Below are positions 27,430 to 50,196 of a DNA stretch of 64,000 nt, piece by piece. Both the position numbers and the translations under genes were made by a program. The notes below the pieces were generated by a model that was not told the DNA's origin, made no database searches, and was given only the letters and a program-made list of their open reading frames with translations. This DNA is from an uncultured Prevotellaceae bacterium (lineage in GTDB: Bacteria; Bacteroidota; Bacteroidia; Bacteroidales; Bacteroidaceae). The stretch spans positions 1-64,000 of the forward strand of contig CACYNE010000007.1 in assembly GCA_902775605.1 (NCBI GenBank), in the 5' to 3' direction. Within the stretch, counting starts at the first letter, position 1, and each line of letters opens with the position of its first letter.

Positions 27430-27541
27430 CACTCGAAGCATCAAGAGCAGTCATCTTTGGATGGACTCGCCAACCGAGTAAAGGATACCACGGTGGTTAG
27501 TACGATGCGGGAGAATTATTCACTTCAAAATTTATCCTTTT
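27430..27541 (+). promoter_or_regulatory. structured 5' leader of the 85-aa gene
   Basis: About 105-110 nt separate the promoter from the start codon. Two small hairpins are visible: ACTCG-CCAAC-CGAGT at 27465-27479 and ACCAC-G-GTGGT at 27487-27497. The leader is unusually long for such a small gene. No known riboswitch class was recognised. Confidence 0.45.
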
Positions 27542-27799
27542 ATGAAACAAGACATTTATTACATTCGTTATGCTCTGCGTTTTGCAGGCATGCAGATTCC
27601 CGAGTTATTAACCGTTTTCAATGCCCAGGTACAAAGCCGAGGCTGGTCCTCTATGCGAGCCTATCACGACCAGGCCCTTATCGATGAGTTTCAGCATCGT
27701 GGCATCGATACCACAGCCGTATATGATGGCAGTATCATCTCATTTGCTCATCCCGTGAGATATGAATTACCCGATAACAAACTAATTGCCATCTGGTAA
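27542..27799 (+). CDS. small hypothetical protein (85 aa)
   Basis: Unrecognised soluble protein MKQDIYYIRYALRFAGMQIP..., ending YELPDNKLIAIW. It is rich in aromatic residues, has no signal peptide, and reads like a compact alpha/beta fold. It has its own consensus promoter and a structured leader, and is followed by a GC-rich imperfect hairpin (27818-27844) that may end transcription and that separates it from the convergent restriction operon. It is not obviously related to either neighbour. The presence of clean expression signals makes it likely to be a genuine gene. Confidence 0.65.
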   Translation: MKQDIYYIRYALRFAGMQIPELLTVFNAQVQSRGWSSMRAYHDQALIDEFQHRGIDTTAVYDGSIISFAHPVRYELPDNKLIAIW

Positions 27800-43531: not shown

Positions 43532-44743
43532 TCACTTCTTCCAAATCTGTCCGGCGTTGGTCACTAACCATAAGTTGCCTTGGGCATCGGCTGTCATAGC
43601 ATATTGTGTGCCTTGGGCGTCGGAAGGCAGTGCATAGTTGGAAACGGTCTTCCAAGTGATGCCTTTATCGCGTGAGACGTAGATGGTCAGGTTGTCACCC
43701 ACCGCATAGATGTCGCCACCAGCATAGGCCATCGAGAGGTTGTTTTGGGCTGGCATGGTGAAGCGGTTGTTGCTTTCAACGGGGATATAAACCCACTTGC
43801 CGTCCTTGTTATGCTGGGCAATCTTGCGCCAGAAACACATCTCGCCATTCTGATTGAGACCACCCATCAGCACGCAGTCGGCTGAGTCGATGGGGGCATA
43901 GGTCCATGTGGTGGTGGCTATCTGGGTGACAGGAAGCAATGATGCTTTGTCGTCGAGGGCCTCATCGTTCCAGGTCAGGCCGTTGTCCTGTGAGTATTTC
44001 AACATGCCATCAGTGCCCAGTGCATAGAGTTCGTCGGTGCTGGCGCCAACCAATTGGGTGAGGGCGGCGGGGCCAACAACATTCCAATTGGTGAGGTCGG
44101 ATGACTGCTCAACATTGGTGCCATTCACTCTATAGGCTTTCTGGCCTTTTATCACGATGCCTTTGTCAACCAGCTGCACGCTATCGCCAAAAGCAACGAG
44201 GCTCTTGTTAGTCCAATTCTTCAAAACGGAATCTTCAGCAACTTTCGTCCACTGACTGCTGGTGCTCTTGGTGGCACTGACCTTCAGGGTTACAGTGTAT
44301 TCGCGGACATTTGACAGGTCGTTGGAATATACGCGAAATACTCTTGGCTGACGGAAATCGATGGAGTCGGTCGTGGAGAGTACCATATCGCCTTTATCTG
44401 TCTTTAGCAATGCGATGCTATTGCTCTTGGTTGATATGCTACTGATGAGCACATGTTCCAGATCGGTGCCTTGGGGCAACTCGGTCGTGTTATAGATTCT
44501 ATTGTTCGTCTGATTTACCGTCAGGGGGTAGTTGCTGCCTGTCAACACGGTCTTGATGATGGTGTCGTTGCCGGTAGTCGACGAAGTGGAGTTTGTGTAG
44601 CAATTTAAATTTCCTAGAACAAAGCCTGTAATGGCCGCTTCATTAGAGGGCTCAATCGTCTCCGTATCGTCGCTATTGAGACATGATGTCATGGTCAAAG
44701 AAACGACGATAAGTGCGTAGAGCGTCTGATAAAATCTTTTCAT
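43532..44743 (-). CDS. DUF6242-type lipoprotein
   Basis: A 403-aa predicted lipoprotein. The ATG at 44743 starts MKRFYQTLYALIVVSLTMTSC, with a lipobox-like cysteine (TMTSC). A Ser/Thr-rich stretch (YTNSTSSTTGNDT) follows, then an N-terminal beta domain and a C-terminal propeller-like region with BNR-style repeats (YSQDNGLTWNDEAL; YVSRDKGITWKTVS). Function unknown. First gene of the DUF6242-DUF6089-uppS-bamA-ompH-murI series; a minus-strand TAAATTTG -7 box at 44771-44778 is its likely promoter. Confidence 0.8.
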   Translation of the reverse strand: MKRFYQTLYALIVVSLTMTSCLNSDDTETIEPSNEAAITGFVLGNLNCYTNSTSSTTGNDTIIKTVLTGSNYPLTVNQTNNRIYNTTELPQGTDLEHVLISSISTKSNSIALLKTDKGDMVLSTTDSIDFRQPRVFRVYSNDLSNVREYTVTLKVSATKSTSSQWTKVAEDSVLKNWTNKSLVAFGDSVQLVDKGIVIKGQKAYRVNGTNVEQSSDLTNWNVVGPAALTQLVGASTDELYALGTDGMLKYSQDNGLTWNDEALDDKASLLPVTQIATTTWTYAPIDSADCVLMGGLNQNGEMCFWRKIAQHNKDGKWVYIPVESNNRFTMPAQNNLSMAYAGGDIYAVGDNLTIYVSRDKGITWKTVSNYALPSDAQGTQYAMTADAQGNLWLVTNAGQIWKK

Positions 44744-48027: not shown

Positions 48028-48064
48028 AAAAAAGAGCGCGGTATGAATCGCTCACCCCGCGCTC
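48028..48064 (-). terminator. terminator of the 31-aa peptide unit
   Basis: GAGCGCGG and CCGCGCTC form an 8-bp GC-rich stem (48034-48064) followed on the minus strand by TTTTTT. It starts 4 bp after the stop codon. Confidence 0.9.
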
Positions 48065-48067
48065 CTT

Positions 48068-48163
48068 TCAACGGATGTTGGAGTTCATCAGAGTAATGAT
48101 ACTCAGAACTGTAGAAATAACTACAGACGCCAACACACACGTTGTTTGTAAATCTAATAACAT
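48068..48163 (-). CDS. 31-aa hydrophobic peptide with its own promoter, leader and terminator
   Basis: The frame reads MLLDLQTTCVLASVVISTVL and ends SIITLMNSNIR. It has a single predicted membrane helix (about residues 9-26) and a short polar tail with one Arg. The ATG at 48163 has an AAGGTAAAG purine stretch just upstream. A TACCTTTG -7 box (48232-48239) with TTGG 16 bp upstream, and a strong terminator 4 bp after the stop, define an mRNA of about 200 nt. The leader has a GTAGTC-ATCAC-GACTAC hairpin (48211-48227) and its bases 48204-48212 are complementary to 48135-48143 inside the coding region. No homologue was recognised. Small membrane peptides of this layout are often type I toxins or membrane-protein modulators. 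Confidence 0.6.
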   Translation of the reverse strand: MLLDLQTTCVLASVVISTVLSIITLMNSNIR

Positions 48164-48164
48164 A

Positions 48165-48260
48165 ATCTTTACCTTAAATCTATTAACTACTAACCTAATG
48201 AATAACGTGTGTAGTCATCACGACTACGCTGCAAAGGTAATATTTCTTGATAAAACCAAT
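48165..48260 (-). promoter_or_regulatory. promoter and structured leader of the 31-aa peptide gene
   Basis: TTGG (48256-48259) and TACCTTTG (48232-48239) on the minus strand, then a leader with a 6-bp stem hairpin (48211-48227) and a 9-nt segment (48204-48212, ACACACGTT in the mRNA) that can pair with AACGTGTGT in the coding region, closing a loop around the ribosome binding site. The other parts of 47866-48350 are AT-rich and show nothing further. Confidence 0.6.
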
Positions 48261-48350
48261 AGTGTTATAAATACATTGTTTTTAAAAACTGTTAACTTTC
48301 TTGATTTATATCAATTAAAATAGATTTTGAAGGTATCAGAAATTATGCTT

Positions 48351-49342
48351 TATGACTTTTCTTTATAGATAACCTTATTGGCTCCACTGGTAATCTTCAG
48401 AGCTTCTGGGTGCTCCTTGATAAAAGAGTCAATATGGCGTACACGTTTTTCTTCGAGAACCTCGTCCATAGCAATCAAAATGCCCGTTTCTTCCACGTCG
48501 CCGAAACCGTAGTTGATGGCGGTGCCAAAGAGTTTCATTGTGGGCGAAAGACTCATATAGGCATTGACTAATGGTGGAATGTTGTAACCCAGCGCACGAA
48601 TCTTCTGGTTAAGAATGCGATAGTCTTCCTTGAAGTTGTTCTCTGTGAACAAAGCTGCAAGTTCCTTTTCATCGGTCTCAATCTTCAAAGGATGCATGGG
48701 GAGAACCAATTCGTCCTTGTCAGAGAAGTGCTTCTTGAGGAAGTAGAGAATCATGTCGCGTCCCTCACGGATATAACTGGGATACATGGTCATCTTGCCA
48801 AAGAAATACTTCACGTTGGGCATGATCACGGTCAGTGCGCCCAATCCGTCCCAAAGGTTGTCAAGTGCAAACAGACTCTTAGCTCCCATCTTTGAACTTT
48901 GGTAGGGAAGGCTCACGAACGAGCGTCCTAGTTCGATGGTGTATGGCATGTAGTCCTTGATGAACTTATCTGAGAAATGGAACATGTGGCTGGTGGCCAA
49001 AATGGGCTGACCATGTTCGTCCATCTCCCATTTTGTTCCTTCCAGATAGCGATAACCGCCAATAATTTCCTCGGCCTCAGGGTTCCATACGATGAGCTGC
49101 TTATAGCAGTTCTCGCATGTATCGAACTCGTCGATATCCACCTCTTTGCCAGTGCCACCACCAGCTTCGCGGAAGGCCATCTCGCGTAGTCGTCCTATCT
49201 CTCGCATCACGTTGGGTGCGTTGTGTGCAGTGACGATGTAGATCTTGTTGTTGCTCTTGTTGGTCATGCGCAACTGAAGGTCGGGCGTCAGTTCCTTTTT
49301 TAGGAGTTCTACGGGAATTGGATCAATGATTGGCTGTTCCAT
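48351..49342 (-). CDS. glsB: N-acyltransferase of glycine-lipid synthesis (GlsB type)
   Basis: A 330-aa GNAT-fold acyltransferase. Resembles Bacteroides GlsB, which attaches a 3-hydroxy fatty acid to the amino group of glycine to give the monoacyl lipid. Visible features are IGRLREMAFREAGGGTG, EEIIGGYRYLEG, TIELGRSFVSLPYQ and LKLFGTAINYGFG-like MKLFGTAINYGFG near the end. Ornithine-lipid OlsB-like activity is the alternative. It is 35 bp after the glsA-type gene, so the pair should form an operon for one membrane aminolipid. GlsB naming is by resemblance and context. Confidence 0.8.
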
Positions 49343-49377
49343 TGTTTTACGTTTTCTATTTGTTTTTTAGTCTTGCT

Positions 49378-50196
49378 TTATGCGAGTTTATATACTTTGT
49401 CCTTTACAAATTTAGCCCATTCCATCGGTGTCTTTTCTTTACTGAAGGTTTGCCAGGGGATAGGCTTGCCGATGGTGATGGTGAATGTATTGCCTGTATT
49501 CTTGAACATTTCGTCGGACAGGAAAAGCATGGCAATATTGATTTTCTTGACGTAACGATCGCTGATGTTTGACAGACGATAGAAGAAATTGCTGTTTCGG
49601 CCCTCAAAGTAGATGGGTACCACGTCTCGCTGGGTCTCCACACTTTTGGTGATAAAGGTCTTTTTCCACTCTAAGTCGCGAATAACGCCATTCTTGCGGC
49701 GTGAACAAAGGCCAGCGGGGAACATCAGAATGTGGGTGTCGCCCTGAAAGCCAGCCTCCACCATGGCGGGGAAGTCGCGTCCGTTCTTACCAGTTTTGTT
49801 GATGGGAATGCAGAGTGGTGCCAAGCCAGGAAGGTTCATCAGCAGGTCGTTGACCAGATAACGGAAGTTGTCGTTATAGTGCTCGCCGATGACAGAGCCG
49901 ATGGCGATGCCGTCAATACCACCCAAGGGATGGTTACTCACAAACGTATAGCGACGTGGATCGTCTTTGGAAGGAAGGTTCTCCAGTCCTTTAACCTCAA
50001 TTTTCACATTCAAGAAGTCAATTGTGGCCTTGAGCCAAGGCGTGCCTTTCAAGTCGCGCGATTGCCAAAGATGGGTGTTAACCTGGTTCTCGTGAACAAT
50101 ATGCTTGAGCCACCAAACCAAGGGACGAGGAACCCAACGGGCCTTCTTCCCCAGTTTGTCTTTAAGAATCTTGTCTATGTCGATAACCTTCTCCAT
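49378..50196 (-). CDS. glsA: O-acyltransferase of glycine-lipid synthesis (GlsA / PlsC type)
   Basis: A 272-aa membrane-associated acyltransferase of the PlsC family, expected to add the second acyl chain to the monoacyl aminolipid made by GlsB. FVSNHPLGGIDGIAIG is the family HxxxxD-type motif (HPLGGID), followed by LVNDLLMNLPGLAPLCIPINKTG and the FPAGLCSRRKNG motif III, with PIYFEGRNSNFFYR later. It could instead act on lysophosphatidate, but the pairing with the GNAT gene favours aminolipid synthesis. Divergent from mraZ. Confidence 0.82.
   Translation of the reverse strand: MEKVIDIDKILKDKLGKKARWVPRPLVWWLKHIVHENQVNTHLWQSRDLKGTPWLKATIDFLNVKIEVKGLENLPSKDDPRRYTFVSNHPLGGIDGIAIGSVIGEHYNDNFRYLVNDLLMNLPGLAPLCIPINKTGKNGRDFPAMVEAGFQGDTHILMFPAGLCSRRKNGVIRDLEWKKTFITKSVETQRDVVPIYFEGRNSNFFYRLSNISDRYVKKINIAMLFLSDEMFKNTGNTFTITIGKPIPWQTFSKEKTPMEWAKFVKDKVYKLA

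Follow-up and report, generated by a model that had tools for sequence, protein, structure and literature searches.

A dual-function RNA, encoded on the minus strand of the window (the whole 64,000-nucleotide stretch analysed, from an uncultured Prevotellaceae bacterium), is the best explanation of the unit studied here: the mRNA of a small membrane peptide that would be both silenced by and a titrator of a conserved small RNA (sRNA), and that has repeatedly decayed to a noncoding sponge. We put the probability of this reading, drawn from sequence comparison and computed pairing, at roughly two in three. The conserved object at the locus is the RNA, which itself seems to matter.

Architecture of the Unit

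Direct reading of the minus strand, on which all features of the unit lie, placed the promoter, leader hairpin, 31-codon ORF, terminator and a 9-bp internal match exactly where the preliminary description had put them. The Bacteroidota -7 promoter box TACCTTTG is found at 48232–48239 with TTGG at 48259–48256 (the consensus is given in an excerpt of PMC7366714), and a TAnnTTTG box lies 60–112 nt 5' of the ATG in most homologues. The 6-bp 5' hairpin GTAGTC-GTGAT-GACTAC (48211–48227) is followed by the leader/start element ATTCATTAGG-TTAGTAGTT-(AATAGA loop)-TTTAAGGTAAAGATT-ATG-TTATTAGA at 48153–48203, which by duplex energy is complementary to a BTnc060-like sRNA. The ORF MLLDLQTTCVLASVVISTVLSIITLMNSNIR at 48068–48163 (ATG 48163–48161, 31 codons, TGA 48070–48068) encodes a peptide with one predicted membrane helix, and an intrinsic terminator at 48028–48064 consists of a GC-rich hairpin and T run with the apical loop AGCGAUU (48052–48046). 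No Rfam model matches the unit.

The unit is flanked by glsB (NF053696) and a SASA-type esterase gene (PF03629). The upstream glsB and glsA (48350–50196) belong to glycine lipid synthesis, and pckA stands in that place in 17 of the first 30 relatives. The lipoprotein at 43532–44785 matches the BamI family in part, its 195 bits falling short of the 370-bit cut-off, and lipoproteins resembling it often come directly after the unit in relatives. Elsewhere in the window, a SAM-I/IV riboswitch is present at 27433–27542 (53.3 bits).

A Peptide Gene under Selection

Judged by its substitutions, the 31-codon ORF is a genuine gene, and comparison of homologues demonstrates protein-level selection on it where it is intact. 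Over codons 9–31 of 98 units pN/pS is 0.35, and codon 32 is a stop in 98/98 units open over 31 codons (TGA 45, TAG 32, TAA 21). These 98 were kept from 105 unique units by requiring an initial M and no stop within 31 codons (L044, L045 and L048–L052 were excluded); a stop at codon 32 was not among the criteria. Codons 2–5 are frozen in the 98 units, synonymous sites included, and the best 19-residue hydropathy of the peptide is 2.28. No family in Pfam or NCBIfam matches it, and no description of the peptide, or of such a Prevotella type I toxin, was found in the open-licence papers covered. The earlier proposal of a conserved, undescribed gene for a 31-aa peptide with one helix, equipped with a promoter and a terminator of its own, is borne out.

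A search with the single peptide in 150 genomes of its own genus gave matches at E≤1 in 61. The unit occurs in Prevotella of gut and rumen; among named carriers is P. communis E15-14 (L057), and many ruminant metagenome bins carry it as well. Outside the genus, a peptide profile found convincing relatives only in g8, another genus of the same family: 21/399 genomes matched at family level (14 own genus, 5 g8, 2 doubtful), 5/392 at order level (3 own genus, 2 doubtful) and 2/296 at phylum level (the own genome and 1 doubtful). In L017, L081, L036 and L092 a second ORF end (CAACATCCGTTGA-like) lies 3' of the stop codon and looks like a decayed duplicate of the tail.

Complementarity to a BTnc060-Like sRNA

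The preliminary description suggested that an RNA partner of the unit was missing or lies elsewhere; computed pairing points to the latter, in the form of an unlinked, complementary BTnc060-like sRNA. When a leader profile (R1) was run over 179 genomes of the family, 86 gave matches at E≤0.05, own genus included. All seven matched loci read from other genera hold a small RNA gene on the opposite strand, with a TAnnTTTG promoter, the core ..GTTATCCTGAAAACAATCTTTTTACCTTAAAA(..)AACTAATACCTATTGAA.. and a terminator; the same sRNA is seen in 10 of 20 further weak matches fetched, mostly from the own genus. At the sRNA locus R1 scores modestly, with E-values between 2e-4 and about 0.01, and these loci count as one event because they are orthologues. 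Using cmscan, BTnc060 (RF04184) was recognized in 15 of 30 loci scanned (6/6, 8/14, 1/10), own genome included, in antisense orientation to the leader; tandem-site loci make up most of the remaining 15. The scores of 62.6–173 bits all lie below the 228.9-bit gathering cut-off (the own-genome sRNA reaches 72.8 bits, E 8e-10), so the partner sRNAs are homologues outside the curated BTnc060 family, for which no described function was found in the open-licence papers covered.

The own-genome homologue (L332) is located at about 78672–78760 of contig C17 of the own genome (G000), unlinked to the unit; a tRNA gene lies about 85 nt downstream of it. A second place in the own genome (C2:20342) holds the 18-base BTnc060-like core with 1 mismatch. 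Each of four genomes checked for this core holds a single exact copy, two of them with additional copies at 1–2 mismatches, and genome G154 has two BTnc060-like loci.

By computed duplex energy, the leader is complementary to this conserved sRNA beyond chance. The own leader and own sRNA reach -29.2 kcal/mol compared to -13.9 +/- 3.3 for shuffled sequences (0/1000 as good, 1/2000 in another run). Among six other genomes, five lie between -29.2 and -32.3 kcal/mol with 0/1000 shuffles as good, the sixth (G004) being weaker at -23.7 kcal/mol and 12/1000. Against the own-genome sRNA, z<-3 was obtained for 156/158 leaders (96/98 with an intact ORF and 60/60 others, the ORF-less loci having been found by leader similarity, which partly builds in their leader conservation and duplex z-scores), whereas control segments from codons 9–29 of intact units gave z<-2 in 0/98. 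In both g8 genomes tested, the duplex between the leader of the 30-aa homologue and the sRNA of that genome reaches -27.9 and -28.2 (0/500 shuffles each). Five of 4126 arbitrary sequence windows bind as well; the lowest of them, at -78.1, can only be the antisense strand of the leader itself.

The complementary stretch takes in the leader, ribosome site, ATG and codons 2–4, and the predicted duplex would cover TTCATTAGG, TTAGTAGTT, TTTAAGGTAAAGATT and the start codon. Within its span, paired leader columns have an entropy of 0.23 (35 columns) and unpaired ones 0.79 (16 columns; P 7e-5). Small GC-rich hairpins (CCGGCAATGCCGG and CTTCGCATATGCGAAG types) are inserted at one place in the leaders of L065, L112 and L124; they fall in the AATAGA loop, which is unpaired in the duplex.

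If both RNAs are made, the unit RNA and the BTnc060-like sRNA would pair. In species bearing the ORF, this would block translation of the 31-aa membrane peptide and tie up the sRNA, and in species lacking it the titration (sponge) role alone would remain. From the computed duplexes we infer that pairing occurs in the cell, with peptide silencing and sRNA titration as its probable consequences.

The roles could also be reversed, the unit being a trans-acting sRNA with mRNA targets of its own (seed in the leader or the AGYGAUU loop) and the BTnc060-like sRNA its sponge. The anatomy would be the same, and the conserved, exposed terminator loop, for which no partner was found, would suit such a role; however, the BTnc060-like sRNA is the wider in distribution, and the 16-base leader core has one other own-genome place at ≤2 mismatches (2 mismatches, in a full-length, unbulged search). 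We hold this arrangement to be quite improbable.

RNA Structure within the Unit

The window transcript folds with z -4.88 relative to dinucleotide shuffles (0/200 equal it), and its minimum free energy structure includes a 7-bp version of the 9-bp pairing between the leader segment ACACACGTT (48204–48212) and the coding segment AACGTGTGT (48135–48143); the exact 9-bp match overlaps the 3' arm of the 5' hairpin by two bases. The preliminary description proposed that this internal pairing could keep the start codon of an mRNA for a type I toxin inaccessible. The exact 9 bp, the folding z-score and one A-U to G-C exchange (L004 relative to L001) agree with such a model, but across 79 units the native mean is -4.48 against -4.11 kcal/mol for permuted sequences, with 79/5000 permutations as low, and the signal comes from one clade. 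Strong pairing is seen in L001, L002, L004, L009 and L056, whereas most of the remaining units pair weakly; for this comparison L110 was dropped (no motif), and the values of L010 and L017, whose leaders were shortened by a false promoter match, are uninformative. As a family feature the internal pairing is rejected, and as an account of the locus it is very improbable. The idea of an RNA duplex over the start site survives in altered form, as the conserved duplex that would cover it is the predicted one with the separate sRNA. Strong 9-bp pairing is confined to near relatives. That the unit is more than chance follows from its conservation in homologues.

Selection acts on the unit's RNA beyond the protein, as measured against codon permutations in which the protein and the codon composition are preserved. 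The coding sequence out-folds its permuted versions in 80/80 units (mean z -2.11), and for the whole transcript z is below zero in 74/80. Codons 10–12 (48130–48136) pair with codons 28–30 (48081–48075) in 93% of cases among 62 non-redundant ORFs, forming a helix that is mostly conserved, without covariation beyond the null. Codons 13–14 with 17–19 (hairpin at 48108–48127) display synonymous-site covariation with an excess pairing of 0.074, above the 95% point (0.061) of an amino acid-preserving null and below the maximum of its 100 runs (0.077). These coding helices were found by a column-pair scan and missed by RNAalifold of the 80 ORF-bearing units. RNAalifold detected many compensatory changes in the 5' hairpin and terminator stem with loop sequences unchanged; one base pair of the 5' stem is altered on both sides in 22 sequences, and a second one in 17. 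The apical loop of the terminator, AGYGAUU, is near-invariant while its closing helix varies by compensation.

Repeated Loss of the ORF

The 16-base leader core is present with ≤1 mismatch in 59/150 genomes, some of them without a peptide match, and at the core-only loci read, a broken ORF, or none, is enclosed by this same set of promoter, leader, start element and terminator. In a wider survey with R1, matches were obtained in 176/277 own-genus genomes, each ≥90% complete (one match in 156, two in 20); a locus that had lost both ORF and leader would escape this survey, in which 101/277 genomes gave no match. ORF state could be classified at 173 loci: 107 are intact and 66 are broken, shortened or absent with the leader kept. 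A first split of non-duplicate loci had given 98 intact and 60 not intact, the latter including L046 and L220, which have 31-aa ORFs and were moved to intact in the tally of 173. Sixteen pattern-missed loci were also read by eye for this tally, as intact (L211, L263, L264, L289, L290, L292, L295) or as broken or absent (L269, L275, L277, L278, L280, L299, L301, L302), with L172 not counted.

Broken forms span from single stops to near-fusion of leader and terminator (L160, L226, L235, L299); L213 and L224 have in-frame shortened ORFs of 26 and 27 aa, not destroyed ones, and ORF-end remnants persist in some broken copies. The ATGTTATTAGAT element is retained in 45/60 of the loci first scored as not intact. 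Four loci are without it (L168, L299, L301, L302), of which L168 and L299 have no ATG ahead of the terminator and L301 and L302 have an unrelated one; all four keep the rest of the leader, with duplex energies of -27.0 to -32.2 kcal/mol with the sRNA. Start codon and codons 2–4 are part of the block predicted to pair with the sRNA, which would explain why they are retained without the protein. The terminator loop motif AGNGA is seen in 44/60 loci scored not intact compared to 5.7% of shuffled loops. Upstream, pckA was found at 59/98 intact and 27/60 not-intact loci, both counts being lower bounds as locus flanks are unequal in length.

A tree of PckA with 76 rows requires at least 11 changes of ORF state, where shuffled ORF labels require 17 or more in 100 trials; the count stays at 11 when L213 and L224 are called intact. 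The tree is weakly supported and the direction of change was not inferred from it; the presence of the ORF in g8 favours loss. Homologous loci whose frame is interrupted by stops or frameshifts are what the preliminary description had named as speaking against its toxin gene, and a toxin ORF is not what the locus is kept for, as 66/173 loci keep the RNA elements around an ORF that is not intact.

Leader retention alone proves little because the loci were found by their leader. The terminator loop, the synteny and a comparison of sister ORF-less loci are independent of this ascertainment. Among sisters (15 pairs in 6 groups, measured out of 42 attempted; 27 were skipped as the terminator was not located or the middle was <15 nt), mean identity is 0.96 in the leader, 0.95 in the terminator and 0.77 in the decayed middle, the leader exceeding the middle in 15/15 pairs and the terminator in 13/15. 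A leader that outlasts the middle in ORF-less sisters restores the support for RNA retention that the ascertainment caveat lowers. Comparison of the loci establishes that ORF loss recurred at loci where the complementary element and the terminator were retained.

The same loci can be read as a trans-encoded type I toxin-antitoxin system, in which the peptide would be a membrane toxin, the BTnc060-like sRNA its RNA antitoxin and the ORF-less copies disarmed relics. A small hydrophobic peptide under selection, a structured coding sequence, a start site covered by the sRNA in computed pairing and repeated ORF inactivation would all be expected of it. Against it stand sister leaders (15/15) and terminators (13/15) that remain closer to each other than the middle does, a terminator loop motif still present in 44/60 not-intact loci, and leader and terminator almost fused in L160, L226, L235 and L299. 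The sRNA also extends to genera in which the search found no unit of this kind, and no mobile-element signal was seen, searches of viral contigs, phages and plasmids having found no relative. A toxin-antitoxin system is considered unlikely.

An ordinary small-membrane-protein mRNA that is targeted by the sRNA, with the ORF-less loci as pseudogenes on the way out, would account for the protein-level selection and for the ORF-end remnants in some broken copies, and leader-based locus finding would miss leaders that had decayed. It is at odds with the leader outlasting the middle between ORF-less sisters and with the four loci that have lost ATGTTATTAGAT yet keep the remaining leader at -27.0 to -32.2 kcal/mol with the sRNA, and we judge it rather improbable.

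Promoter Sites and Further Sponge-Like Loci

A palindrome TTGTG-N4/6/8-CACAA with ≥9/10 bases is present upstream of the unit in 47/219 distinct regions, 4–9 nt ahead of the -7 box in 45/47; in shuffled sequence a score of 9 is attained in 1.2% of cases. The window's own copy is not one of the 47. Rex was considered from its consensus as the reader of this operator. At the sRNA gene, a palindrome with 8–10/10 bases lies 54–56 nt ahead of the -7 box in 9/10 Prevotella loci, those of L336 and L347 (8/10 bases) being indistinguishable from shuffles; the second sRNA copy in G154 (L349) is without one. In other genera a Cur-type motif (11–13/14) is found instead at 32–33 nt in 9/10 readable sRNA loci. 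The Bacteroides Cur consensus is TATGTTnTAnAACATA in excerpts of PMC6989115 and PMC3878776.

The palindrome over the sponge promoter would be in a repressor position, in some lineages, and that upstream of the Prevotella sRNA -7 box in an activator position. We infer that one CRP-type protein reads sites at both promoters, with opposite control of sponge and sRNA; such a regulator may set the sponge/sRNA ratio. A broader proposal can be offered tentatively, at somewhat less than even odds: Bacteroidaceae would possess an RNA switch responding to carbon state, with a Cur/CRP-type regulator turning the BTnc060-family sRNA on and the sponge off, the sponge having been built from a small-membrane-peptide mRNA and having become noncoding independently several times, while other Prevotella would use a second, tandem-site sponge.

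Nine Prevotella loci (L338, L339, L340, L343, L344, L345, L346, L348, L350) carry leader-like, often repeated sites complementary to the BTnc060-like sRNA, several of them in genomes without a strong match to the window RNA (G146, G240, G339, G403). Such loci may represent another class of sponge, or the sites may belong to leaders of other genes; L345 has a 161-aa ORF downstream. L338, L343, L344, L346 and L348 have one to three sites each with best duplexes of -31.8 to -35.5 kcal/mol, and their predicted RNAs fit the sponge idea.

If the dual-function reading is true, the conserved Bacteroidota sRNA family BTnc060 gains a partner, the transition from mRNA to noncoding sponge is visible in many intermediate states, and the freezing of a start codon and first codons after loss of the protein is accounted for. 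As a caution, where a small conserved ORF follows a frozen leader, it may be retained for the sake of the RNA.

Comparison with Known Systems

The window RNA is not BTnc060 (RF04184) but carries its complement. SgrS/SgrT is a dual-function small RNA with a base-pairing part and an ORF of ~30 aa. VcdRP, a dual-function sRNA with the same two parts, is tied to carbon metabolism and CRP in an excerpt of PMC8672173. The unit is predicted to resemble both in combining a base-pairing part with a ~30-aa ORF; unlike in either, its pairing part extends over the start codon and ribosome site of the ORF, and the partner predicted for it is itself an sRNA.

Sponges or decoys exist for the sRNAs ChiX and GcvB. 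Like these, the unit includes a stretch complementary to a conserved sRNA, and its ORF can be absent, but most of its copies encode a selected peptide and its descent from an mRNA is visible across species. In type I toxin-antitoxin systems (Fst, TisB, Hok), a short hydrophobic peptide is encoded by a structured mRNA with an RNA over the start site. The unit shares the peptide, the structured mRNA and a predicted RNA cover of the start site, and differs in that its sRNA is unlinked and family-wide and its ORF is dispensable.

Among Bacteroidota sRNAs, FopS and GibS of Bacteroides pair at start codons, and FopS has 12–15 copies per genome, according to an excerpt of PMC11697453. The BTnc060-like partner is likewise a Bacteroidota sRNA predicted to pair at a start codon; unlike FopS as described there, its 18-base core has one exact copy per genome in the four checked.
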